From NCBI GenBank assembly GCA_944323685.1, contig CALUTJ010000007.1, positions 1-64,000 on the forward strand: DNA of 64,000 nt, given 5' to 3'. Position 1 is the stretch's first letter. Every line of letters begins with the position of its first letter. The notes under the pieces are model-generated. The model ran no database searches, was not told the DNA's origin, and saw only the letters and a list, made by a program, of their open reading frames with translations. This DNA is from Candidatus Gastranaerophilales bacterium. Lineage in GTDB: Bacteria > Cyanobacteriota > Vampirovibrionia > Gastranaerophilales > Gastranaerophilaceae. Of this stretch, positions 2,476-63,940 are shown piece by piece. Both the position numbers and the translations under genes were made by a program.

Positions 2476-3450
2476 ATGGAAAATAATAAACAAAGATGTG
2501 AAAATTGTATAAACTTTAGAAAAGTTGTAATGATAGGTTGCGGTTTTGTGGGTTCTGCCAGTGCTTTCAGCCTTATGGAATCAGGTTTGTTCACAGAGAT
2601 GGTGATGATAGATGCAAACAGGGAAAGAGCAGAAGGTGAAGCTCTTGATATCAATCACGGTGTCCCCTTTGCAAGGCCGATGAAAATTTATGCCGGTGAT
2701 TACGATGACATAGAGGGTGCTTCATTGATAATAATTACCGCAGGTGCAAACCAGCAGCCCGGTGAAACCAGATTGGATTTAGTTAAAAAGAATGTAGAAA
2801 TTTTTAAATCAATCATACCTGAAATAACAAAACGTAATTTTAACGGGATAATGTTGATTGTGTCAAATCCTGTTGATATTTTAACTTATACCGCACTAAA
2901 ACTCAGCGGTTTGCCTAAAAACAGGGTAATAGGCTCGGGTACGGTGCTTGATACAGCAAGATTGAAATACGAAATAGGCAAACATCTTGATGTCGATAGC
3001 AGAAGCGTTCAGGCTTTTATAATCGGTGAACACGGTGACAGCGAAATAGCCGCATGGAGCTGTGCTAACGTTGCCGGTATAGGTTTAAGCGATTTTTGTG
3101 AAATGCGCGGTCATTATGATCACGACAGTGCAAATCAAAGAATTGCGAATGATGTTAAAAACAGTGCTTATGAAATTATCTCAAAGAAAAAAGCAACTTA
3201 TTACGGCATTGCAATGTCTGTGAAACGTATTTGTGAGGCTATTGTGCGAGATGAAAAATCAGTGCTGCCAATTTCTTCTTTGATGTGCGGAGAATACGGA
3301 TTAGAGGATGTGGTTTTGAGCATGCCGTCAGTTGTAGGGAAAAACGGGCTTGAGGCGCATGTTCCTATTTCTCTAAACCGTGAAGAAATTGAAAAACTTC
3401 ACAATTCTGCTAATACATTAAAAGATATTCTTAAACAAAACGGACTATAA
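2476..3450 (+). CDS. ldh: L-lactate dehydrogenase
   Basis: This 324-residue NAD-dependent 2-hydroxyacid dehydrogenase reduces pyruvate to lactate in the cytoplasm and regenerates NAD during fermentation. The Rossmann glycine motif is GCGFVGSA (about residues 22-29). SNPVDILTY, DTARLKYEIG and IGEHGDSE (catalytic His, about residue 180) are diagnostic of L-LDH. The first 14 residues form an extension with a CxxC pair (RCENCINF) not usual in LDH. A plausible GAGG Shine-Dalgarno lies 12 bases before the ATG. The gene is monocistronic. A 178-bp repeat begins two bases after its stop and an intrinsic terminator follows at 3648. Malate dehydrogenase is the main alternative, but the substrate-loop region and GEHGDSE fit LDH. 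Confidence 0.9.
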   Translation: MENNKQRCENCINFRKVVMIGCGFVGSASAFSLMESGLFTEMVMIDANRERAEGEALDINHGVPFARPMKIYAGDYDDIEGASLIIITAGANQQPGETRLDLVKKNVEIFKSIIPEITKRNFNGIMLIVSNPVDILTYTALKLSGLPKNRVIGSGTVLDTARLKYEIGKHLDVDSRSVQAFIIGEHGDSEIAAWSCANVAGIGLSDFCEMRGHYDHDSANQRIANDVKNSAYEIISKKKATYYGIAMSVKRICEAIVRDEKSVLPISSLMCGEYGLEDVVLSMPSVVGKNGLEAHVPISLNREEIEKLHNSANTLKDILKQNGL

Positions 3451-3452
3451 AT

Positions 3453-3630
3453 TTGTCCGAGAAAAATTCGTGATAAGGAGCAAAGAGAAGTGAACGAATT
3501 TTTGGAGTGACACATTGTTCACATAGTGAAGCCATTTTTCAGGCTTCACCACAGTTCAGCCGAAAAAGAAGGCAAAGGTGAGCAGTGCCGGCTCGAAGGC
3601 TCGAGGCGGCAACTGCGACACTAGATTAGA
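3453..3630 (+). repeat. 178-bp structured dispersed repeat, copy A
   Basis: It begins TTGTCCGAG and ends GCGACACTAGATTAGA. Nearly identical copies lie at 4717-4894 (inverted), 56061-56238 (direct) and 63660-63837 (inverted). Internal inverted repeats include AAAAATTCGT/ACGAATTTTT and GTGAAGCC/GGCTTCAC. The ends are not inverted repeats of each other, so it is not a simple MITE. Copy A differs from the others by GAGAAG in the variable spot and by AGTGAC in place of AGTGTC. It starts 2 bases after the ldh stop and may form part of that 3' UTR. Confidence 0.9.
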
Positions 3631-3647
3631 ATATAATTGCAAAATAT

Positions 3648-4604: not shown

Positions 4605-4716
4605 AAAATCTCCTCGTTGTATATTTATATAAAAACAATTGCAGGGTCAAAATTGCCAAATTGTTGCTGATGTCAGGCAGGATGCGCTAAATCTGTGATT
4701 TATTGCATTAAAAGAA

Positions 4717-4894
4717 TCTAATCTAGTGTCGCAGTTGCCACCTCGAGCCTTCGAGCCGTTACTGCTCACCTTTGCCTTCTTTTTCGGCTGAACTGTGGTG
4801 AAGCCTGAAAAATGGCTTCACTATGTGAACAATGTGACACTCCAAAAATTCGTTCACGTCGCTTTGCTCCTTATCACGAATTTTTCTCGGACAA
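4717..4894 (-). repeat. 178-bp structured dispersed repeat, copy B (inverted)
   Basis: Read on the minus strand it is nearly identical to copy A, with CGACG in the short variable spot and AGTGTC intact, so it can pair with the terminal GACACT. It lies upstream of 3759-4604 and downstream of the autotransporter, between two minus-strand genes. Confidence 0.9.
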
Positions 4895-4930
4895 CTTAAT
4901 GATACCGCGTAAGCGATACTATTAAACAGG

Positions 4931-5258
4931 TAGGTTGGGCTTTCAGCCTAACTGTCATTCTGAAGCGTCCGTCGTTGAAGGTTTGCGATGATTGTGTGTG
5001 TTCAGAATCTTACCGGCTGAGCGTGGAATTACTAGGCTGGTAATGTGTATTGTCGACCCTCACCTGCGTCCGTAATTCGCTTACGCTCATACGGCTGCTT
5101 CCCTCTCCCGCCGGAGAGGAATGATTTTTTCGTCATTCTTGTATATGTTACGTAATTCGATGACAAATTTTGTTACAAAGTAGTTGTAGGGTGGGCAAAG
5201 CCCTAAGGCGTGCCCACCATCATAAAGCAACGTAGGTTGGGCATACTTGCCCAACACT
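4931..5258. repeat. Mosaic of short palindromic repeats downstream of the autotransporter
   Basis: This stretch has no gene. It holds GTAGGTTGGGC...GCCTAAC (4931 onward), a degenerate copy (about 4951-5042) of the unit found inside the autotransporter gene, CCTCTCC/GGAGAGG (about 5103-5120), GGTGGGC...GCCCACC (about 5190-5218) and GTAGGTTGGGCATACTTGCC (from 5230). Palindromes of the GTAGGTTGGGC/GCCCAAC kind recur at 8431 and 8639. Such repeats are common in cyanobacterial and proteobacterial genomes; how they spread here is not visible. Confidence 0.7.
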
Positions 5259-5268
5259 ACATAATTCT

Positions 5269-8200
5269 TTATTCTCTGCCGATTTTCCAGCGAAGGCCTG
5301 CGGAGAGTGATACACCGTTTCGTCCGCCGTTGTGTATCATTGCCTGTCCAAAGGCTAAGAATTTATCGTTTACACGTTTTTGTAAACCAACACCGTACTG
5401 TACATACGGTTTTATACTCATTTCGGGTAATCTTACACTGTCTGCTGTTACTTTCGATTCATCAAGCAGGTTCCAAACCATGCTTACACCTATGTATGGC
5501 TGCCAGCCGTTTTTGGTGTTGCCGATTAACTTGATTCCCGGAGCCAACTGTATTGCGTGCATAGGGTCAGATTCTATTCTTACACCTGCTCCGTTTGTGT
5601 AATCAAATGTATTAACGAATGTATATGATATCAACATACTCGGCTGCAATATCATACCGCCGTCAAAGAACTCGAAGTTGTAACCTGTTTTGTTGCCTAA
5701 ACCGGCAAGCAACATTGTATAGTTTTCAGAACCGTACATTGTTGAGGCATCGCCTGCGGAAGCTCCTACACTCAATGTCGTTGCGTTAAAGAAGTTGCCT
5801 TTGTAGAAGGTTGCAGTTCCGCCTAACAAACCGCCGTTTTGATATGCATCAACACCTGAATATCTTTGAGAAGCACCGTTGTAACCGATGTAACCTGTCA
5901 ATACTCGTTCAAAACCGTTAGATATAGACTGCAATGGTGAGTCGTAACCAACTAAAGTTCCGTAGTTGATATTAGAAACTTTAGGGCCGTTCTTTAAAGG
6001 AACATTTTCAAAACTTGCGTATGGTTTAACCCAGAAGCCTGCACTTTCTTCTTTAAGAAGAAGAGGAGAATATGTACCTACATCTGTTGCATCACCTGTT
6101 GGTGATAAAGCATATTTGCCTTGATTTATGATAGCTACACGTTCAAGATACGGGATGTTCATGAACGTATCTGCGTGCTGGAATGCGTAGTTAAATGTTT
6201 GAAGCTGAGTAGTATAAGCACCTGCTTGAGTAGCAACAGGAGAAGCAAGGACTGAAGGGTTAAAAGCATCGCTTGCATTGCCGCCAGCTCCTGAGCCGCC
6301 GCGGGTGAAGCTAAAGAACCCGTCATCAGGGTTGTATGATACATCATATTTCCAGATAGGAGAATACGCGATAGGAGAAGTGCCTGTGAAAGCGACATTT
6401 GTAGCTAACTCATCATCTGCAAATTGAATGTTAGTAACATCTTCTTTTGCATCTGATAATAGTACAACGTTGTTGACGTTAAGCATAGCTCCATCTTTAA
6501 CGTTGTAGCTATCAGCTGTAATTCTGTCCATGGATTTGTTTGCTAAATCAGCATCGACAGAAATGTTTGTATTGCCGTTTAAATTCAATGTCGGAATATG
6601 CATTGTGCCGACTGTATTGTTATTAAGGTATATTGAGCCTGAATTGAGTGTTAAAGATTGTGATTTATCAAAGACATCTTCTCTGCCGAGATACAAATTA
6701 GTATTATCTAAACTGATGTTTGCGTTGATAATATCGTTGTTTAAAACCACTTTGCCTGTAGAGTCGCCGTCTAATGCCAGTGTATAAGTGTATTTATCAC
6801 CTTGGGATTCTGTTAGCGTTTTTTCGTTATCTATTTTTAAATCACCGTACATTATGCCCTTATTAATGATTTCTTCGTCTGTTGTATCTTCATCATACAA
6901 GTACCATTCTTTTGCATATTTGATATATTGATCGATTGTTGAAACACCGAAATCGTCTTTTGCATAATCTGATAAAACAAGGTCGCCTGTTTTCGTTACT
7001 GTATTTGTTCCAGCAACGACAATATTGCCGTCTATTGTGTTATCAAAAACTATTACACCGTTTGTGTTTGCATCGAGTGTAAGTGTCGGAACAGAAAGCG
7101 GGGCTTCAGCTTTTGTAATTTCTTCAAAAGTAACTTTGGTGTTATCTATAGAAATTATATTCCTGTCGGTATTTGTATAACTGTCACTAATAGTTGCTAC
7201 ATATATAGCATTAGGCGTTTTTACACCGTTAGATTCAGTATAGTTTCCAGAAAAGATTGACTGCCCGCCGTCTTTTGCTATGATGTTAAGGCTGTTGTCT
7301 GTGTAAATCGCACCGCCGAGTGCAACTGCATTTTCGCCTGTTGCTGTAGCGTGATTGCCCCAGAAGTTGGAGTTAACGATACCGCCTGTGAGATTTCCAT
7401 CTTTATCTTTTGTGCCAATTATTGAAGAGCCGTCAATGCTATTGTAATAAATATTCGTTTTATTATATATAGCTCCCCCATAGGCTGTACTATGATTACC
7501 TGCTAAAGCTGCATAATTGCCTATAAAATTACCATTTATACTGTTAATTTGCGCTATTCCACCATAATATATTATATTACTGATTGCGCCGCCGCCATTA
7601 GTATAAATGTTCTGCCTATTACTTACGTAATTGCCGATAAAGTCGCCTGTTATATTATTGATTATAGACGGAGATATGCTACTGTGTGATATATTGCGTA
7701 TAGCGCCACCTCCTTCAGGAAAATCATTATTATTACCTATAAAAGTACCGGATATATTATTTATAAGGCTGTAACCGTAAGGACCTTCGCCAGTGTCAAT
7801 ATCTGTGTTATAAATCGCTCCGCCTTTATTTCCTATAAAATTGCCGGATATATTATTTATTGTTGCATTATTAATATATCCCAGCTCATAAGAACTGTTA
7901 TGAATAACACCATAAAAGGGATTAGAGTCGTTGTTGATAAAATTACCTTTTATTTCACCAATAGTTCCACCAAAGGTATTACTTATCGCTCCATCCCCCG
8001 AAATATAATCGTTATTAACAGAATCAATTGTTTGCCCTGCGCCGCTATTTTCTATTGGCTGAGCAATATTGCCGGAGTTATACTTAACAGTTATGGTATT
8101 TTTACCTGTAGTCGGAGCTGAGACTTCTTTAAATTCAAGATTTCCTGTTTCAGTATTTTGAACCCACTCAAAGTATTTTGTTGTATCGCCTGAGCCTATA

Positions 8201-8592
8201 TTTTTTATAGAGTCTTTTAAATCAACGCGATAATATACAGGAAAAAATTTATTTTCTGTTTGCGACCACTCGTATTTAGTAATAGTATTAATACCTTGTT
8301 CCTCAACCCTTGTAAGTGTATAGGCAGTATTGTCTTCTGTAGCCGGAGTTGATTCGGCTGCGATAGCAGATTGGGTAATAAAAAACGACATTGCAAGGGT
8401 CAAGGCGGCTGTTTGTGCCAATTTTGTGATGTTGGGCAGGTATGCCCAACCTACATTGTTGGTTTGCGATGATTGGGTGTGTTCAGAATCTGACCGGCTG
8501 GGTGTGTTGTTTAATAGTTGGTAAGATCCTGAGCTCGCTTCGCTCCTCAGGATGACAGTTAATTTATTATTTTTGCGGAAAATCTTTTTCAT
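5269..8592 (-). CDS. Pmp-like autotransporter adhesin with interrupted signal peptide
   Basis: This 1107-residue type V secreted protein has three parts. Residues 55-79 form a signal-peptide core ending SAIA-AES. The passenger (about 80-800) is a predicted beta-helix with repeated G-[NTD]-FIGN and GGA[IV] words (for example GNKGGAIYN and EGGGAIRN), the alternation typical of chlamydial polymorphic membrane proteins. About 830-1107 is an autotransporter beta-barrel (AGFWVKPYASF...GLRWKIGRE). It should be exported by Sec and displayed on the outer membrane. The ATG follows AAGGAC at good spacing. Residues 11-54 are encoded by a 132-bp palindromic repeat inserted in frame; without them the start would read as an ordinary signal peptide. 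A surface adhesin role is inferred. Confidence 0.88.
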   Translation of the reverse strand: MKKIFRKNNKLTVILRSEASSGSYQLLNNTPSRSDSEHTQSSQTNNVGWAYLPNITKLAQTAALTLAMSFFITQSAIAAESTPATEDNTAYTLTRVEEQGINTITKYEWSQTENKFFPVYYRVDLKDSIKNIGSGDTTKYFEWVQNTETGNLEFKEVSAPTTGKNTITVKYNSGNIAQPIENSGAGQTIDSVNNDYISGDGAISNTFGGTIGEIKGNFINNDSNPFYGVIHNSSYELGYINNATINNISGNFIGNKGGAIYNTDIDTGEGPYGYSLINNISGTFIGNNNDFPEGGGAIRNISHSSISPSIINNITGDFIGNYVSNRQNIYTNGGGAISNIIYYGGIAQINSINGNFIGNYAALAGNHSTAYGGAIYNKTNIYYNSIDGSSIIGTKDKDGNLTGGIVNSNFWGNHATATGENAVALGGAIYTDNSLNIIAKDGGQSIFSGNYTESNGVKTPNAIYVATISDSYTNTDRNIISIDNTKVTFEEITKAEAPLSVPTLTLDANTNGVIVFDNTIDGNIVVAGTNTVTKTGDLVLSDYAKDDFGVSTIDQYIKYAKEWYLYDEDTTDEEIINKGIMYGDLKIDNEKTLTESQGDKYTYTLALDGDSTGKVVLNNDIINANISLDNTNLYLGREDVFDKSQSLTLNSGSIYLNNNTVGTMHIPTLNLNGNTNISVDADLANKSMDRITADSYNVKDGAMLNVNNVVLLSDAKEDVTNIQFADDELATNVAFTGTSPIAYSPIWKYDVSYNPDDGFFSFTRGGSGAGGNASDAFNPSVLASPVATQAGAYTTQLQTFNYAFQHADTFMNIPYLERVAIINQGKYALSPTGDATDVGTYSPLLLKEESAGFWVKPYASFENVPLKNGPKVSNINYGTLVGYDSPLQSISNGFERVLTGYIGYNGASQRYSGVDAYQNGGLLGGTATFYKGNFFNATTLSVGASAGDASTMYGSENYTMLLAGLGNKTGYNFEFFDGGMILQPSMLISYTFVNTFDYTNGAGVRIESDPMHAIQLAPGIKLIGNTKNGWQPYIGVSMVWNLLDESKVTADSVRLPEMSIKPYVQYGVGLQKRVNDKFLAFGQAMIHNGGRNGVSLSAGLRWKIGRE
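8431..8562 (-). repeat. 132-bp palindromic repeat inserted in frame in the autotransporter gene
   Basis: The unit runs from GTTGGGCAGGTATGCCCAAC at 8431 to AGGATGACAGTTAA at 8562, exactly 44 codons. It contains a GTTGGGC/GCCCAAC palindrome and an ATCCTGAG/CTCAGGAT hairpin. Related segments lie at about 8990-9070 and 4951-5042. Joining the flanking codons would give a canonical signal peptide (MKKIFRKNNK then ITKLAQTAAL...). This is comparable in kind to Rickettsia palindromic elements inserted within genes. Confidence 0.8.
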
Positions 8593-8638
8593 CTTTTTAT
8601 GTCCTTTATGTAATAACTAATTCTTTTTTATTTTTTGT

Positions 8639-8662
8639 GTTGGGCACGTATGCCCAACCTAC
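8639..8662. repeat. Short palindrome GTTGGGCACGTATGCCCAAC
   Basis: GTTGGGC and GCCCAAC surround ACGTAT, followed by CTAC. This is the same short repeat as at 8431 and 5230, without the longer companion segment. Confidence 0.7.
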
Positions 8663-8728
8663 TGTGCTACGGTGCCGTGGTGCTTGTTTTTTTACATCCG
8701 AGCTTTGTGGAATGAATTACAGAAAGTT

Positions 8729-9307
8729 TCACAAACAACCACAAGCGAGGTTTGTTTGAGGGCTATGTAAATATAACAAACACTTTAATTTAATGAGGGA
8801 GAGCAATTTATATAGCCCGAGTTGCCGAGCACAGGTTTGTGTTACTTTCTGTATGAATGGAACAGCAGCTCGGGAGTTTCTTGGGCTCCACCCGTTCTTT
8901 GCTCCAAAGAATGGGTGGAACATAAAACAAAAATTTGGGTTATTTTTCTTTGATACTTTTCCTTCTTCTAAAAGTTCTTTTGCAATTTGTGAGGTGTGTT
9001 CAGAATTTGACCTGCTGTGCGTGGAATCACAAGACTGGTAAGATCCTGAAATAAATTCAGGATGACAGCTAGCTTTATTGTTGTTTTCATTTACCAAAGA
9101 AAAATCGTCATTCCGAACTTGTTTCGGAATCTGTACAATTTTTGAAGGTTTACTTGAAGCTTGCTCAAAAAGTTTGTTATTCTCTGATTCAACAGGCTCT
9201 TTTGCAGTTTTGTGTTCAGCTCCTGAGCCATGTTGTCTTGCTGAATCCTGCGCACAAGCAAGCGGCGCAATGATTTGTGCATTGCGTTGTTGTTTTAAAT
9301 CACTCAT
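8729..9307 (-). CDS. Doubtful repeat-built ORF upstream of the autotransporter
   Basis: The frame is open from an ATG at 9307 with a good GGGAGG 6-7 bases upstream. An earlier TTG at 9319 is less likely. The first 50 residues (starting MSDLKQQRNAQ) could be a genuine gene start. The rest translates dispersed palindromic repeats: IPKQVRNDD from an ATTCCGAA/TTCGGAAT hairpin, the CHPEFISGSYQ segment related to the autotransporter insertion, and HPFFGAKNGW from the 8887-8919 hairpin. No domain is recognised. It may be a small gene extended by repeat insertion, or an accident of repeats lacking stop codons. It lies in the same direction as the autotransporter gene, about 140 bp upstream. Confidence 0.3.
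   Translation of the reverse strand: MSDLKQQRNAQIIAPLACAQDSARQHGSGAEHKTAKEPVESENNKLFEQASSKPSKIVQIPKQVRNDDFSLVNENNNKASCHPEFISGSYQSCDSTHSRSNSEHTSQIAKELLEEGKVSKKNNPNFCFMFHPFFGAKNGWSPRNSRAAVPFIQKVTQTCARQLGLYKLLSLIKLKCLLYLHSPQTNLACGCL
8887..8919. repeat. Long hairpin with 15-bp arms
   Basis: TCCACCCGTTCTTTG (8887-8901) pairs with CAAAGAATGGGTGGA (8905-8919) with one G-T mismatch and a 3-nt loop. No T-tract follows, so it is more likely a palindromic repeat than a terminator. Confidence 0.7.
8990..9125 (-). repeat. Related palindromic repeat units
   Basis: About 8990-9070 resembles the autotransporter insertion: GTGTTCAGAAT, then GGTAAGATCCTGAA...TTCAGGATGACAG with perfect ATCCTGAA/TTCAGGAT arms. 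A second palindrome, ATTCCGAA...TTCGGAAT, follows at about 9113-9132. Both lie inside the doubtful minus-strand ORF. Confidence 0.65.
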
Positions 9308-9686
9308 ACACCCTCCCAAACCCTTGCCATAAACGGCTTTTAGAATCTCGGGGGGGGGGTAAAATGCTATTATATAAGCCTTTCTGGCTGTTTTTAAAAC
9401 CTGTTTTTGAGTTCATGATTATACCCTGTTATCAAAAGTTTAATTCTCGTGAATCAAATAAGGAGCGCAAGCAAAAATTTGCACACTAATCCTTACTTTT
9501 TTTATTTCGACCAGGTTATGAAAAAACTTTAGGGGAAAATCATACTTTTTTACAAAAGTTAATATTTTACCTGTGCGTATTATTAAAATTTTATTGGTAA
9601 TCCAATTCTGTCATTTTTTATAAAACAAACGATAGACAAATTTTTGGTGCTAAAATAAACTTATCCGTAAAAAGAGAGAGTGTGAT
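9308..9686. other. Gene-free gap with a G10 homopolymer
   Basis: A run of ten G occupies 9350-9359, about 43 bp upstream of the doubtful minus-strand start at 9307. The remainder is AT-rich, with GCAAAAATTTGC at about 9470-9482. I see no gene or RNA. The ispG promoter must lie in the last 100 bp, but I cannot place it with confidence. Confidence 0.5.
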
Positions 9687-40698: not shown

Positions 40699-43600
40699 TT
40701 ATTCGTCACCAACCGTAAAGTCGGGAGCACCGAACATACCTTCGATTTCTTCCAGTATTGCGGAAGGTTTACGGGCATTGTTCTTTTGTGCTGCTCTTCT
40801 TTGAGCTTCTTTATCTTTTTCTTCGGAAGCGTGTGTCAAGTGGTAGTAACCTGTACCGGCAGGAATTAATCTACCGATGATTACGTTTTCTTTAAGACCT
40901 CTTAACAAGTCTTTTTTGCCGTCAACAGCTGCTTCTGTAAGGATTCTTGTAGTTTCCTGGAAGGAAGCTGCGGAGATAAAGCTTTCTGTGTTCAAAGAAG
41001 CTTTTGTAATACCGAGTAATACAGGTTCGTAAGTAGCAGGTTGTCCGCCGGCTTCTTCTACTGCCTGGTTTTCAATTTCGAGTGATTGAATTTCAACCAG
41101 TTCACCCGGAAGAAGTTTTGTGTCGCCGGAATCAACTACTTTAACTTTCTTAGTCATCTGACGAACGATGATTTCAACGTGTTTATCGGCAATTTCTACA
41201 CCCTGAGAACGGTATACTCTTTGTACTTCGTCTACAAGGTACTGCTGTGCAGCTTCAATACCGTTCAATCTGATAACATCGTGAGGGTTCAACGGACCGC
41301 TTGTTAAAGGCTGACCTACGTGGATTTGTTGTTTATCCTGAACGATGATATTTGAATCAATCGGATATTTGATTTCTGTTCTGCCGTTTTCACTGTTCAA
41401 GTACAATCTCGGTACATCGTCTTCGATTTCGATTTCGGCAACAGCGTCAAATTCTGCAAGGATAGCTGAATCTTTAGGCTTACGGCCTTCAAGAAGTTCT
41501 TCTACCCTCGGAAGACCTTGTACGATGTCGCCTGTTTTTTGTCTTTCAAATACGAGGTTGGCTAACATATCACCTCTGAGTACGAGAGAACCTGAATCAA
41601 CCTGTAACATAGTACCGGGGCTGATTAAGTACGGACGGCCGATACGGATTTTTACCGAATCTTTTCCGACTTCAACAACACGGCCTGATGTAGGAGTTGT
41701 TTCGCCGCTTTCTGAGATTACTCCGTCACGTCTTACAAAATCGCCTTCTTTTACGACAGGTTTTGTTTTGAGTTTAACTGTTTGTTCTACGTTATCAGAG
41801 ATAAGAAGCAATCTTCTCAAGTCTTCTCTGTCTGATTTTATGCTTGCAACACCATCATTTACTGCAAGTACCTGAGTTTTTGCAACAGGTTCTTTCGGTG
41901 CTATTGTTTGACCGTCTTCTACAAGAAGTTCTGTTTGCAGAGAAGCTTTATTGGTACCTTCAACTTCACGTCTTACGATTAATGTTTCAAGTACAACAAC
42001 CTTCAATGCATTATCCTTGGTCATTTCAACCATACCTTTTAAGTGGCTCAAATAACCCTGCATTTGAAGAACAAGACTTGTTCTTGTCAATGTAGAACCG
42101 TCAAGGTTTCTTACTCTTGCACCGTCTTTGTACTGCAATTGAGTAACAGGAACGATGCTGATAGCTTCGTCTGTACTTTCAAATTCAATACTTACTGATT
42201 TCGGTTTGATTTCGAACTGTTGAACAGGTCTTACAAGGATTTGAATCGGTTTGTTAGTGATATTTTCTTCATCAAGTGATGTAACATCGATTTCTTCATC
42301 AAGGTCATCAATTTCAAGATTATCATCTTCAGATTCAAGAATAGTAACGATAGATGTCTGTTTAGCCTTGATTTTACCTGCGATAACAGTTCCGGCTTCA
42401 ACAACTTCACCTTCTTCTACCTTTAAGTCGCCTATAGATTCGAGTGTATAAATTTCACCCGGTCTTACTACAACTTCGTGGATGATATCATTGAATTCTT
42501 TGATTTCAACAATACCGTCGATGTGGGTATAAAGGTCTTTTACAACCTCTGTACCTGCTGTAACAAAGGTATTGTTTTCAACCATTTTCAATGTAACGTC
42601 TTTGCTTATCTGGTGAACTTCTTCAGGTATGAAAATAACTGAACCCGGTTTTGTAATAATCTGGTTTTCGTCAACTTCGATACCCTGATATCTGATTTCA
42701 CCTGATGAGTTAACTGCGTATTCATCGTCTAAGAGTTCTGCGATAATCATACCGTTTTCAACAGAAGTATCAGCAGGTGATTTAACGATGTATTTTTCAC
42801 CGGTTGAATCAACTGTCCAGAACTGTTCTTTTTTAGTTGTTTCAAAAGTTGCGTTAGAAGGTGCAATAGAAGCGATAACGATTGTCAATTCTTTACCCTG
42901 AACAATCTTTTTAATCTTCTTACCGTCAAATTTAACTTCTTCTACAACAAGGTTGTCGCCGACTCTTACTTCACCGCCGTGTTCTGATGAAATATGAGTT
43001 TCTGCAAGTTTTTCACCTGTTTTAACTTTTTGTCCGTCTTTAACAAGTATTTTAGAACCGCCCGGAAGGTTGTAAACATCGCCGCCTAAAACCCAAACAA
43101 TACCGTTTTTGTTGGCTGTTCTTGATACGTTGCCCTGTCTGTCTTTCTTTTCGTCTGCAACAAAGTCTTCGAAGAATACTTCACCTGACAAATCAGAGTT
43201 AATATCTTTTGTAGCTTTTTCTGTCAAGCGGCTTCCGTCACCTGATGAAGCAGGTTCAAACTCTGCAATCATATCACCTTTTTTGATAGTCATACCGTTA
43301 GCTACAAACATTTTTGCGCCTGTCGGTATGTGATATTTTCTGGATAACTTAGCGCCTTTAACTTCTAAATCGCCTTCTTGGATGTTAACCTGAACGATAT
43401 CACCGTGACGGGTTCTCATTTCTTTTGTTCTTAATTTAGAAACAACTTCCCCATCGATTTCGGCATTAATGTGTTTCATCGCACCTGAACCTTTGAATAC
43501 ACCGCCTGTGTGGAAGGTTCTCATTGTAAGCTGTGTACCCGGTTCACCGATTGACTGAGCTGCGATAATACCGATTGCTTCGCCGACATCAACCATTTTT

Positions 43601-46397: not shown

Positions 46398-46435
46398 TTT
46401 ATTATCTCCTTTAATTATTACTTCTTAAGGTGGTA

Positions 46436-49400
46436 TTACTCTTTAAATGATGTAGGTGTTTCAAAGAAGTTGATATTCAACAGCTCTGAATCTATATCCG
46501 ACAGAGTTCTCTTAGCGGAGGATTTTCTCAAATCATCCGTGTCGGACATAAGGTCAACTTCTTCACCGCCTTTTTTAGCAACAGTGATATCCAAACCGAT
46601 AGATTGAAGTTCTCTGACGAGTACTTTAAACGATTCGGGGATACCCGGTCTCGGGATATTGTCGCCCTTAACGATTGCTTCGTATGCTCTTGAACGTCCG
46701 TTAACATCATCGGATTTGATAGTTAACATTTCTTGCAGAGTATAAGCAGCACCGTAAGCTTCCAATGCCCAAACCTCCATCTCACCGAATCTCTGGCCGC
46801 CGAATTGAGCCTTACCGCCTAACGGCTGTTGAGTAACGAGTGAATACGGGCCTGTGCTTCTTGCGTGAATTTTGTCATCTACAAGGTGAACAAGTTTCAA
46901 TATGTATGTCAAACCAACTGCAACAGGTCTGTCAAACGGTTCACCGGTTCTTCCGTCGATAAGTCTAACCTTACCGTCTTCACCGACCCAGTCAACGCCT
47001 GTAGCTTTAATACCTTTGAGAAGTTCTTCTCTGGTAACTTTTTCTGACATACCGTCACCGTACATCTCATCGAATGACGGTGCTTCGTAGTGTTGTTTGT
47101 TCAAGTATGCAGCCATACCTAAGAGGTTTTCATAAGTCTGGCCTACGTTCATACGGGAAGGTACACCAAGAGGGTTCAATACAACGTCAACCGGTGTTCC
47201 GTCAGGCAGGAACGGCATATCTTCTTTAGGAAGAATTCTTGAAACAATACCTTTGTTTCCGTGACGGCCTGAAAGTTTGTCGCCCACAGAAACTTTACGT
47301 TTTTGAGCGATGTAAACTCTGATAACTGTGTTAGCTCCAGGAGGCAGTTCGTCGCCTTTTTCACGGTCGAAAACTTTAACGTCGACAACGCGTCCGCCTT
47401 CGCCGTGAGGAACTCTCAGTGAGTTATCTTTTACATCTCTTGCTTTTTCAGCAAAGATTGCTCTTAACAGTTTTTCTTCCGGCGGGTGTTCTGATTCACC
47501 TTTCGGTGTAACTTTACCTACCAGAATATCGTCAGCGTAAACTCTTGCACCGATTCTTACGATACCTCTTTCGTCCAAGTGACGTAAAGATTCTTCGGAA
47601 ACGTTCGGAACTTCTCTTGTGATTTCTTCCGGTCCGAGTTTAGTTTGACGTGCGTCTATTTCTAATTTTTCGATGTGTACTGATGTAAAGATATCGTCGT
47701 AAACGCATCTTTCGGAAAGCAGGATAGCATCTTCGTAGTTATAGCCTTCCCACGGCATATAAGCAAGAAGAACGTTTTTGCCTAATGAAAGTTCGCCCAT
47801 GTTTGTAGAAGCGCCGTCTGCGATTACATCACCCGCTTTAACCTCGTCACCGTCACGTACGATAGGTTTCTGGTTAATGCAGGTATCCTGGTTGCTTCTT
47901 ACATATTTCATCAACTGATATCTGTGGAGTTTGTTTGCTTTGTCTCTGATGTAGATTTCTTCGCCCACAACTTTTTCAACAGTACCGTCAACATCTGAAA
48001 CAACAACCATGCCGGAGTCTTTAGCAGCTCTCTTTTCAAGACCTGTACCAACAACAGGACGGTCTGTAATAAGAAGAGGTACTGACTGACGCTGCATGTT
48101 AGAACCCATCAAAGCACGGTTTGCGTCATCGTGTTCGATAAACGGAATCAAAGAAGTAGCAACAGAGAAAATCTGAATCGGAGAAACACCGATGTAGTCA
48201 ACTCTGTTTGCTTCTGACATAGCAAATTCTGATCTGTAACGTACAGGTACGTACGGATATTTGATACTCTTGTCAGGATTCAACTCGAGGTCGGCAGGTG
48301 CAATACGCAGGTTATCTTCTTCGTCTGCTGTCAGGTAGTGAACTTCGTCAGTTACAACACCGTCTTTAACAGCAAAGAACGGAGATTCGATAAAGCCGTA
48401 ATCGTTAACTTTTGCGTGAGTAGCAAGAGAACCGATAAGACCTGCGTTCGGACCTTCAGGAGTTTCAACCGGACAAATACGTCCGTAGTGTGAAGGGTGA
48501 ATGTCACGAACAGCAAACCCTGCTCTTTCTCTGACCAAACCGCCGGGGCCTAAAGCTGAAATACGTCTTTTGTGAGTCAACTCTGCTAGCGGGTTAATCT
48601 GGTCCATGAACTGTGACAACTGAGATGAACCAAAGAACTCTTTTAATGAAGCAACTAACGGTTTAGTGTTCAACAAGTTCAAAGGTGTCAGTGTGTCGGA
48701 ATCCTGAAGAGTCATTCTTTCTTTAACAATTCTTTCAATTCTTGAAAGACCGACTCTGAACTGGTTTTGAAGCAATTCGCCAACTGAGCGGATTCTTCTG
48801 TTTCCGAGGTGGTCGATATCATCAATAGAACCTTCATCATAAGTTAAGTTGATTAAGTATTCGATTGATGCAACCAAATCCTGAATAGTAATTGTTCTTT
48901 GAGTTTCAGGAAGGTTCAAACCTAATTTTTTGTTTAATTTATAACGTCCCACACGACCGATATCGTATTTCTTTTCGTCAAAGAAACGTGCTTCCAAGAT
49001 AGAACGTCCGCCCGCAGCAGAAGCAGGGTCGCCGGGTCTTAATTTTTTGTAGATTTCGATTAATGCGTCATCAGTAGTTTCCGTTGTGTCTTTATCAAGA
49101 GTCTTTTTCAAAAACTCTGCGTGAGTAAAGAGGTTTTCCATTTCAGAAACAGTGATACCCAATGCTTTAAGCAATGTAGTCGCAAGAATTTTTCTGTTTT
49201 TATCAATCTTAACGTAAATTACATCGTTAGCATCGGTTTCGATTTTTAACCATGCACCTCTGTTAGGGATAAGAGTTGCGTTATATAAACGTTTACCGGT
49301 CGGAGAAATTTCACGTTTGAAATATACACCCGGTGAACGAACAATTTGTGAAACGATTACACGTTCGGCACCGTTAACAATAAAGGTACCTTTGTCGGTC

Positions 49401-54722: not shown

Positions 54723-56059
54723 TGACAGGCTCGTTGTTAGGTTTTATACTCGGATTACTGGTTACGCTGTTTAGCGGTTATTTTGCAGTATCAATAATAG
54801 AAAGAGAGATGGAATTAAGGTTTCGTCTATTGTTTGCCATACCTCTCGGATTTGGCATAAATTCTATTCTTTATTTTCTGTTTTTGTGTTTGCATATAAA
54901 CAGCTTTGATTGTTTTAAATGGTTTGAACTTGTACTTACGCTCGTTCTTGCTCTGATTTATTATAATGAAGAAAAACCTGATTTGAGCAAACACAAATTA
55001 AAAAAACTGTCTAACTGGTTTTATCTTTTGAATTTGTATGCAGTTTTGATTTACTTAAAATATTTTATAAACAACCCTATGGGCAGCTGGGACGGTTTTA
55101 GGATATGGAATATAAAAGCAGAGTTTTTGTTTTTGAATAATCCTCTGTGGCAAAATGTGTTTTCACTGCCGCATTTTATGTCCCATAATGACTACCCGAT
55201 GATGATACCGGCAGCAACGGCAAGACTTTGGAACTATACAGGAGCCGAAAACTATATAGTTAATGCGACTATCGGGCTGTTTTTTACTTTCGGACTTGTT
55301 TACCTTTTGTATCAGGCAATTACTTATTTTAAAAGCGAAAAAGCGGCAATTGCTGTAACCTCGGTTTTTATGATACTTGATATATTTCTTGTAAACGGTG
55401 CTGCACAGTGTGCGGATATTCCTTTAGCTTATATGTATTTATGCACAATTGTCAGTCTGTTTTTGTATTTCAGGAAAGAAAAATTTTCTTATATTGTGCT
55501 TTCAATTTTGTTTGCGGCTTTGAGTGCGTGGACAAAGAATGAGGGTATGCTCTTTTTTGCTGTTTATCTTGTATGTATAGCGGGGTATTTTTTAAGCATA
55601 AAAAATATCAAAAAGCTCGGGTTGTTTGCACTGACTGCGCTTATCCCTTTAGTTTTACTTGTTTTGTATAAAAACACAGCACATGCAGCCAATGACCTTA
55701 TTGCCGGATTTGCCGCATTAAAGACTTATAATTTTGCGCTGGATTTGAGCAGATACGAAATTATTTTAAAAACTTTTGTCAAAATGTTTTTCTTAAAATT
55801 CCCGCTGCTTATAGTTCTTTTATTGTTATGTATTAAAGGTTTTAAAGTAAAAGAAATAAACAAAATTCCGTTTAAAATTTCTGTGATTATTTTTGTATTA
55901 ATGACAACCGGATATTTTTGCGTTTATCTGTTTTCACCGCACGACATAACATGGCTTGTACAAAATTCTATGGACAGATTGATTTTACAGCTGTTACCGT
56001 TATTCATGTTCCTGTTTGCGGTTAATTTAAGAATAGGCAAGCCGGACAGCGTAAATTAA
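54722..56059 (+). CDS. Polytopic GT-C-fold glycosyltransferase-like membrane protein
   Basis: This 445-residue protein has about 10-11 membrane segments. The first large loop carries NPMGSWDGFRIWNIKAEFLF (about 120-139), where Asp-containing loops of the GT-C/GT39 class bind lipid-phosphate sugars, then LPHFMSHNDYPMMIPAATAR. SAWTKNEGM (about 261-269) resembles the conserved K-x-E-G of related ArnT-like proteins. It probably transfers a sugar from an undecaprenyl carrier at the outer face of the inner membrane. Donor and acceptor are unknown. The 178-bp repeat copy C begins two bases after its stop. Confidence 0.72.
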   Translation: MTGSLLGFILGLLVTLFSGYFAVSIIEREMELRFRLLFAIPLGFGINSILYFLFLCLHINSFDCFKWFELVLTLVLALIYYNEEKPDLSKHKLKKLSNWFYLLNLYAVLIYLKYFINNPMGSWDGFRIWNIKAEFLFLNNPLWQNVFSLPHFMSHNDYPMMIPAATARLWNYTGAENYIVNATIGLFFTFGLVYLLYQAITYFKSEKAAIAVTSVFMILDIFLVNGAAQCADIPLAYMYLCTIVSLFLYFRKEKFSYIVLSILFAALSAWTKNEGMLFFAVYLVCIAGYFLSIKNIKKLGLFALTALIPLVLLVLYKNTAHAANDLIAGFAALKTYNFALDLSRYEIILKTFVKMFFLKFPLLIVLLLLCIKGFKVKEINKIPFKISVIIFVLMTTGYFCVYLFSPHDITWLVQNSMDRLILQLLPLFMFLFAVNLRIGKPDSVN

Positions 56060-56060
56060 T

Positions 56061-56238
56061 TTGTCCGAGAAAAATTCGTGATAAGGAGCAAAGTGATGTG
56101 AACGAATTTTTGGAGTGTCACATTGTTCACATAGTGAAGCCATTTTTCAGGCTTCACCACAGTTCAGCCGAAAAAGAAGGCAAAGGTGAGCAGTGACGGC
56201 TCGAAGGCTTGAGGCGGCAACTGCGACACTAGATTAGA
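56061..56238 (+). repeat. 178-bp structured dispersed repeat, copy C
   Basis: Same orientation as copy A, starting 2 bases after the stop of the GT-C gene. The variable spot reads TGATG and AGTGTC is intact. Together with copy D (inverted, 63660) it encloses about 7.4 kb holding the efflux operon, skp and a flippase. Confidence 0.9.
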
Positions 56239-56253
56239 TAATATTGTGGTAAA

Positions 56254-63637: not shown

Positions 63638-63659
63638 AAATAATCTTTTCGCTTTAATA

Positions 63660-63837
63660 TCTAATCTAGTGTCGCAGTTGCCACCTCGAGCCTTCTAGAC
63701 GTCACTGCTCACCTTTGCCTTCTTTTTCGGCTGAACTGTGGTGAAGCCTGAAAAATGGCTTCACTATGTGAACAATGTGACACTCCAAAAATTCGTTCAC
63801 GTCGCTTTGCTCCTTATCACGAATTTTTCTCGGACAA
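63660..63837 (-). repeat. 178-bp structured dispersed repeat, copy D (inverted)
   Basis: Inverted relative to copy C and nearly identical to it, with CGACG in the variable spot as in copy B. Its apical stem differs by a TCTAG change. Flanked by TTTAA on the left and TTTAAA on the right. It lies between the secreted protein and the GH57 gene and fills most of a 303-bp gap. Confidence 0.9.
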
Positions 63838-63940
63838 TTTAAAACAAATCTAAAAGACACTCTTTGTATTTTGTGCTACAATTCATTTACATTGTAGTAC
63901 TAATAAAAGCAAAGGCTGTAGATAAAAACAGGGGTTAAAA

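Follow-up and report, generated by a model that had tools for sequence, protein, structure and literature searches.

REP-type repeats in the signal-peptide region of an autotransporter gene of Candidatus Gastranaerophilales

Described systems and the present locus

Intragenic REPs, the Rickettsia palindromic elements (RPEs) and the enterobacterial RU elements are already known as short repeats that can lie within genes (PMC3733652, PMC2759123). Di Nocera et al. 2013 (PMC3733652) set REP superfamilies by their GTAG or CGTC tags, the CGTC stems being 8-9 bp long and AT-starting, with unusual loops in some species; RPE-4 and RPE-6 of Rickettsia were assigned to the CGTC superfamily, for which no transposase is known (PMC3733652). 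The locus described here lies in the window, by which we mean the whole 64-kb stretch of DNA analysed, on contig C7 of a 2.3-Mb Candidatus Gastranaerophilales genome (G000). As with the RPEs (RPE-4, RPE-6 and the longer RPE-1 type), palindromic repeats occur in ORFs in frame and have copies elsewhere, and the left hairpin in the window conforms to the CGTC type of RPE-4 and RPE-6 by tag and stem, so that the likeness to Rickettsia elements proposed in an initial annotation of this DNA was apt. Unlike the RPEs, the repeats belong to another phylum and join a GTAG REP to a CGTC unit; RPEs are found in many unrelated genes, whereas here, among 23 genomes of the genus, all copies in ORFs of more than 250 aa belong to one family and occupy one position. 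With GTAG and CGTC REPs and with REPtrons the locus shares the tag, stem lengths, dimers, an intergenic preference, occasional intragenic copies and, as RAYT-like copies with an internal TAG, genes bordered by GTAG hairpins, but the intragenic REPs of that study lie in varied genes (many of them for DNA repair) and in varied places, and those found here only in autotransporter signal peptides (PMC3733652). The elements RU-1, RU-2 and RU-3 are likewise small mobile repeats read in frame, and a signal peptide is predicted for some of the proteins that contain them, but they are 103-168 bp units in single gene cases, with no recurrent site in a paralogous family (PMC2759123).

The gene also has described counterparts. 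ESPR autotransporters similarly carry a long N-terminal extension preceding the hydrophobic core; in contrast, the n-region in the window is repeat-derived and variable in sequence and length, and it has no ESPR profile match (Pfam ESPR motif, none at E up to 10, a search in which HMMER filters discard very weak matches). The phase-variable autotransporter genes capC and capD of Campylobacter resemble the present family in a 5' poly-G/C tract (in the sister genes), a conserved barrel and a divergent passenger, and slipped-strand phase variation is known for capD (PMC7168839). They differ in phylum and in the setting of the tract, which in the sister genes here adjoins REPs within the signal-peptide n-region and in the window gene is confined to a separate upstream ORF. 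In the open-access literature we met no case in which the signal peptides of a paralogous family are occupied repeatedly, at one restricted position and next to a switch tract. Full-text search of the same literature found no paper for Gastranaerophilales with phase variation and, for Melainabacteria, one flagellin survey only. Intragenic REPs and RPEs have so far been scattered curiosities; here one position appears refilled by different REPs in a paralogous family of seven species.

Anatomy of the gene and its repeat-derived stretch

The features of the locus are as follows.

4930..5255, plus strand: downstream REP cluster, with GTAG at 4930, CGTC at 4954, a spacer copy at 4975-5025, GTAG at 5186 and a GTAG hairpin at 5232-5255
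5269..8592, minus strand: autotransporter gene (ORF, 1107 aa), with a signal peptide of about residues 1-78, passenger and C-terminal beta-barrel
5272..6252, minus strand: beta-barrel domain, by alignment, fold and structure search (TIGR01414, AlphaFold2, Foldseek)
8359..8430, minus strand: translated remainder of the signal peptide, ITKLAQTAALTLAMSFFITQSAIA, with a hydrophobic core conserved across sister genes and likely cleavage after AIA
8431..8562, minus strand: 44-codon repeat-derived stretch, LTVILRSEASSGSYQLLNNTPSRSDSEHTQSSQTNNVGWAYLPN, codons 11-54, 132 nt, stop-free, between the Shine-Dalgarno/ATG and the hydrophobic core
8431..8454, minus strand: GTAG-tagged REP hairpin, GTAGGTTGGGCATACCTGCCCAAC, stem 8 bp, loop 4, RNA -12.0 kcal/mol
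8455..8525, minus strand: REP-dimer spacer, SYQLLNNTPSRSDSEHTQSSQTNN, with TCA in the in-gene copies where many non-genic copies have TAA
8526..8557, minus strand: CGTC-type REP hairpin, tag TGTC, stem ATCCTGAG/CTCAGGAT of 8 bp, loop 12 nt, RNA -12.8 kcal/mol, with dispersed copies
8563..8592, minus strand: codons 1-10, MKKIFRKNNK, of which codons 4-10 match dispersed non-autotransporter element copies in genome G008
8602..8607, minus strand: AAAGGA, resembling a Shine-Dalgarno, 9 nt ahead of the ATG (8592); sister genes L042, L044, L046 and L049 have it at the same place
8639..8662, minus strand: a further GTAG REP hairpin, in non-coding DNA 5' of the gene; sister genes C7:106264 and C9:88502 have it upstream as well
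8987..9067, minus strand: additional CGTC-unit copy in the upstream region, CHPEFISGSYQSCDSTHSRSNSEHTS, from repeat searches
9350..9359, minus strand: run of 10 C, as read in gene sense, within a leader ORF that lies separately upstream (ATG at 9416..9414)

The identity of the gene was established from its C-terminal 327 residues, which in a profile search with the barrel domain as query matched TIGR01414 (autotrans_barl) at E 7.5e-10; 39 of the 42 aligned relatives match it as well, giving the family the C-terminal autotransporter barrel of type Va. AlphaFold2 predicted a barrel fold for this domain (pTM 0.75), and Foldseek with the predicted barrel returned EspP, AIDA-I and BrkA as the best PDB matches. 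Pfam profiles gave no match to the barrel, and the whole protein drew no match from NCBIfam, in which TIGR01414 came up when the barrel domain was the query. A sequence search against solved structures found nothing relevant; the kinship of the barrel was settled by fold comparison.

Judged from its sequence, the stretch at 8431-8562 is composite, combining a spacer with two hairpins that belong to different REP superfamilies. The GTAG hairpin consists of the tag followed by GTTGGGCA-TACC-TGCCCAAC, within the 5-13 bp stem and 2-20 nt loop expected of a GTAG REP. The other hairpin has an unpaired TGTC at 8554-8557 (gene sense), as in the CGTC type, and when folded its 8-bp stem of ATCCTGAG and CTCAGGAT starts A, T and falls in the 8-9 bp range; its loop is 12 nt, versus 4-5 nt in published families, and a copy elsewhere in the genome (L202) reads ATCCTGAA-CTTGT-TTCAGGAT, with a loop of 5. 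In the congener G008, two copies (L192 and L193) within short non-autotransporter ORFs show an 89% match to the window gene between about 8583 and 8454, codons 4-10 included, and the edge between codons 10 and 11 is therefore no proven insertion boundary. Repeat homology thus appears to extend on the left to about codon 4, into the supposed native n-region. Among relatives, taken as one genome per species, we found no orthologue in which MKKIFRKNNK is fused directly to ITKLAQ, the exact empty site that the initial annotation had proposed to look for; L071 of genome G002 (MNKYCKPAAIIPLALSFFIAAPALA) is repeat-free with a similar core, but its start is different and it is not an exact empty site. 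The initial annotation had read a single 132-bp insertion splitting a textbook signal peptide between codons 10 and 55. The coordinates and openness of these 44 stop-free codons hold, whereas one unit with those ends is rejected on the composite anatomy and the repeat homology beyond the left edge; on these grounds, and with no exact empty site found among the relatives, a simple split of the signal peptide is not supported.

The stretch is open in 1 of its 6 frames, namely that of the gene. Taken alone, this single open frame is little proof of translation, because 312 of 2000 dinucleotide shuffles (16%) are open too, as are 21% of 132-nt stretches taken arbitrarily from the window.

Repeats and homopolymer tracts in the sister genes

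The stretch has kindred outside the gene, as had been claimed for the adjoining non-coding DNA: the spacer copy at 4975-5025 is 88% identical to it and has TAA in the gene frame, and the hairpin at 8639-8662 is a further relative. Within the window, 9 of 10 REP cores lie at 4930-9117, behind, inside and before the autotransporter gene. A repeat relation to other loci, which the initial annotation presupposed, is evident genome-wide, with 47 matches to the stretch and 18 copies of the exact GTAG hairpin pattern, against 0 for a reversed control. A search for other genes that contain the unit in frame was equally productive: with the consensus of the 39-residue translated unit, all 14 copies in ORFs of more than 250 aa, among the 23 genomes of the genus, lie in autotransporters, and they contain 0 stops.

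In a count over 40 autotransporter ORFs, the signal-peptide 5' region had 35 REP cores in 10.2 kb (3.4/kb) and the mature part 4 in 131 kb (0.03/kb), a difference in density of about 100-fold; the 5' region was taken from the in-frame stop upstream, and some of its bases may not be translated. The flanks hold 27 in 13.2 kb (2.05/kb) upstream and 28 in 9.2 kb (3.05/kb) downstream. From these values the signal-peptide region seems to accept REPs like intergenic DNA and the mature part hardly at all. That the stretch is simply tolerated is the best-supported of the consequences suggested for it at the outset, and the pattern speaks for tolerance in a segment that is removed and under no constraint, not for a role of the peptide itself.

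The reading frame of the repeats was examined in several ways, and these openness tests all point to translation through them. Of the spacer copies, all 13 within signal peptides of autotransporters keep an open frame, whereas 14 of 26 others contain a stop, mostly TAA at the site read TCA in the gene copies (Fisher 6e-4); in the host genome alone, 8 of 8 in-gene copies are open against 5 of 18 others (Fisher 8e-4); and an open frame runs through 14 signal-peptide regions of 96-363 nt, against 0-9% of the shuffles of each, although the gene copies tested share descent, so that both the Fisher and the shuffle values overstate independence. In a codon-position comparison directed at protein-level selection, the spacer differences among the gene copies, which are few and related, are distributed over all three positions (11, 9 and 14).

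The host genome has 34 matches to the autotransporter family. Its sister genes are mosaic: the 5' cassette and the 3' flank are each 91-98% identical and the barrel about 85%, between genes whose passengers cannot be aligned. Among those with a common Shine-Dalgarno, ATG and MKKIF start, the sets of repeats before the same hydrophobic core differ; four genes of this genome carry the GTAG block at the same position. In genomes G006 and G016 the n-region contains another CGTC REP (CGTCATTCTGAGCGAA...) whose flanks are near-identical; it occurs in a short form (NVILSECEESHKL), with 30 nt more, and in much longer forms, each of which keeps the reading frame. In G010, L141 and L211 differ by a REP-type block that stands in frame ahead of the core. 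Since this comparison used one assembled genome per species, these are differences between genes and not polymorphism within a species. Repeats in the signal-peptide region occur in seven species (G000, G006, G008, G010, G013, G016 and G017), and others have plain signal peptides; related proteins of similar size (L063, L070, L072 and L071) carry plain short ones. The 44 residues are accordingly not a constant of the family, with some sister genes lacking the stretch and others carrying different repeats. Such natural short and long alleles, together with the deficit in the mature part, make the survival of palindromic repeats in proteins testable.

A separate locus of the host genome (L202, C13:21954 onward) is an orphan 5' cassette, with Shine-Dalgarno, ATG, MKNIFRK and an intact REP dimer, that leads into a 134-aa ORF and no autotransporter.

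About 20 sister genes in the genus have a run of 9-13 G or C between the start codon and the hydrophobic core (L052, L199, L178-L190, L203, L205, L210 and L214, in genomes G006, G008, G010, G016, G017, G018 and G000). Their start codons mostly have a Shine-Dalgarno, the poly-C group having none by the criterion used. In each, exactly one length class out of three keeps the frame open into the autotransporter, and the other two meet a stop after a few codons; the assembled length is the open class in two copies (L203 and L210), homopolymer lengths from assembled metagenomes, with one assembly per species, being uncertain. At least 7 of 9 tracts of 9 or more G/C in the host genome lie at or before autotransporters. 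We take these tracts as probable slipped-strand phase variation, which would give Gastranaerophilales, a gut lineage, a set of switched autotransporters. No frame-setting homopolymer is present in the ORF of the window gene itself; such tracts belong to the sister genes instead. The leader ORF upstream of it (MNSKTGFKNSQKGLYNSILPPP..., 9416..8729, minus strand) is short at the assembled length and reaches 228 aa in one other length class, ending before the autotransporter start. The ORF at 8729-9319, which is REP-rich and has a sub-threshold DUF as its only profile match, we treat as a leader remnant. A similar leader is found on contig C38 of the same genome (L255). Runs of 9 or more G/C were also seen in 99 of 117 genomes of family f1; some genera have up to hundreds of overlapping matches, and among the ORFs concerned are one resembling a flagellin (L257) and, at C2:69843 in the host genome, one for a membrane protein next to an MBOAT-like gene (L250).

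Origin and consequence of the repeats

Based on these findings, we propose that the stretch quite probably reflects recurrent, tolerated insertion of REPs into a permissive n-region, spread by duplication and recombination of a 5' cassette. The entry of palindromic repeats in frame, as originally suggested, agrees with the filled and short alleles in sister genes and with the copies outside genes. A CGTC-type REP dimer, represented by the left hairpin and the spacer, would sit in or at the extreme 5' end of the coding region, with a GTAG-tagged REP hairpin taking the place of the dimer's right end; we infer that these repeats arrived by transposition. From the ATG at 8592, the REP-derived DNA would then be translated as the n-region of the autotransporter signal peptide. 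The n-region of a Sec signal peptide is subject to loose limits on sequence and length, and it is for this reason that in-frame, stop-free repeats may be retained there, to be removed with the signal peptide, their residues presumably serving no useful role and export still working. REPs in the passenger or the barrel would be purged by selection. The cassette, comprising the upstream REP, the Shine-Dalgarno, MKKIF, the repeats and the hydrophobic core, would have been copied among sister genes, and other species would have placed other REPs at the same position. The REP identity of the blocks, their in-frame state, the length alleles, the depletion in mature parts and the stop-free gene copies, on which this proposal draws, can be read directly in the DNA.

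Other readings make different use of the same observations. The near-identical 5' and 3' REP blocks could be kept as recombination handles that swap passengers or switch leaders between sister genes, as the 91-98% identity of cassette and 3' flank around unalignable passengers and the cassette without an autotransporter at L202 would suggest; the conserved core and barrel alone would permit the same recombination, however, and we give this idea roughly one chance in a few. It is unlikely that the long n-region is adaptive, an ESPR analogue that slows inner-membrane translocation of large autotransporters. Long n-regions do recur in this family, and long signal sequences are common among autotransporters of other organisms (PMC2805444), but length and sequence vary freely among the sister genes, similar-sized relatives are served by plain short signal peptides (L063, L070, L072 and L071), the ESPR profile does not match, and the residues stem from repeats also present as non-coding DNA.

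Rather improbable, in our estimate, is a misplaced start codon, with translation beginning downstream and the REPs acting as 5' untranslated regulatory hairpins. The non-coding flanks are indeed REP-rich, and such an error has been suspected for many N-terminal REPs, with cases in other species (PMC3733652). A good Shine-Dalgarno and ATG nevertheless precede the stretch, while the downstream candidates (TTG at codon 58 and an ATG within the core) lack both a Shine-Dalgarno and a basic n-region; the gene copies avoid the TAA found in other copies; and in the sister genes with a tract, exactly one class of tract length keeps the frame open from an upstream start codon across the REPs as far as the core. 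Finally, the 44 residues might be the ancestral n-region of the family, with no insertion at all, to which the four host genes with the GTAG block at the same position could be referred. We consider this very improbable, and the allele series already goes most of the way to refuting it: within this genome and in others, sister genes are without the block or have other repeats in its place, and the blocks are found many times outside genes.

Returning to tolerated insertion, we tentatively extend it to a possibility that we rate as less likely than its contrary. The n-region may be a standing landing site of mobile REP DNA combined with the poly-G/C switch tract, such that REP turnover would rewrite the export signal and slippage would toggle the protein, selfish repeats thereby feeding a contingency system.

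A possible source of the GTAG repeats is present in the same genome. Contig C11 carries two identical copies of a Y1 (HUH) transposase or RAYT-like gene (Y1_Tnp), at 40859-41475 and 46417-47033 (L208), both flanked by inverted GTAG hairpins (GTAGGGTGGGCA...TGCCCACC) with different DNA outside; these hairpins differ from that of the window in one stem base pair. Mobilization of the GTAG REPs by RAYT is therefore plausible, and the transposase may now be dead, because a TAG lies inside each copy.

The window also contains a dispersed repeat of about 185 bp, strongly structured and unrelated to the REPs, in four copies that are 92-98% identical and occur in both orientations (3447-3635, 4716-4899, 56055-56243 and 63659-63842).
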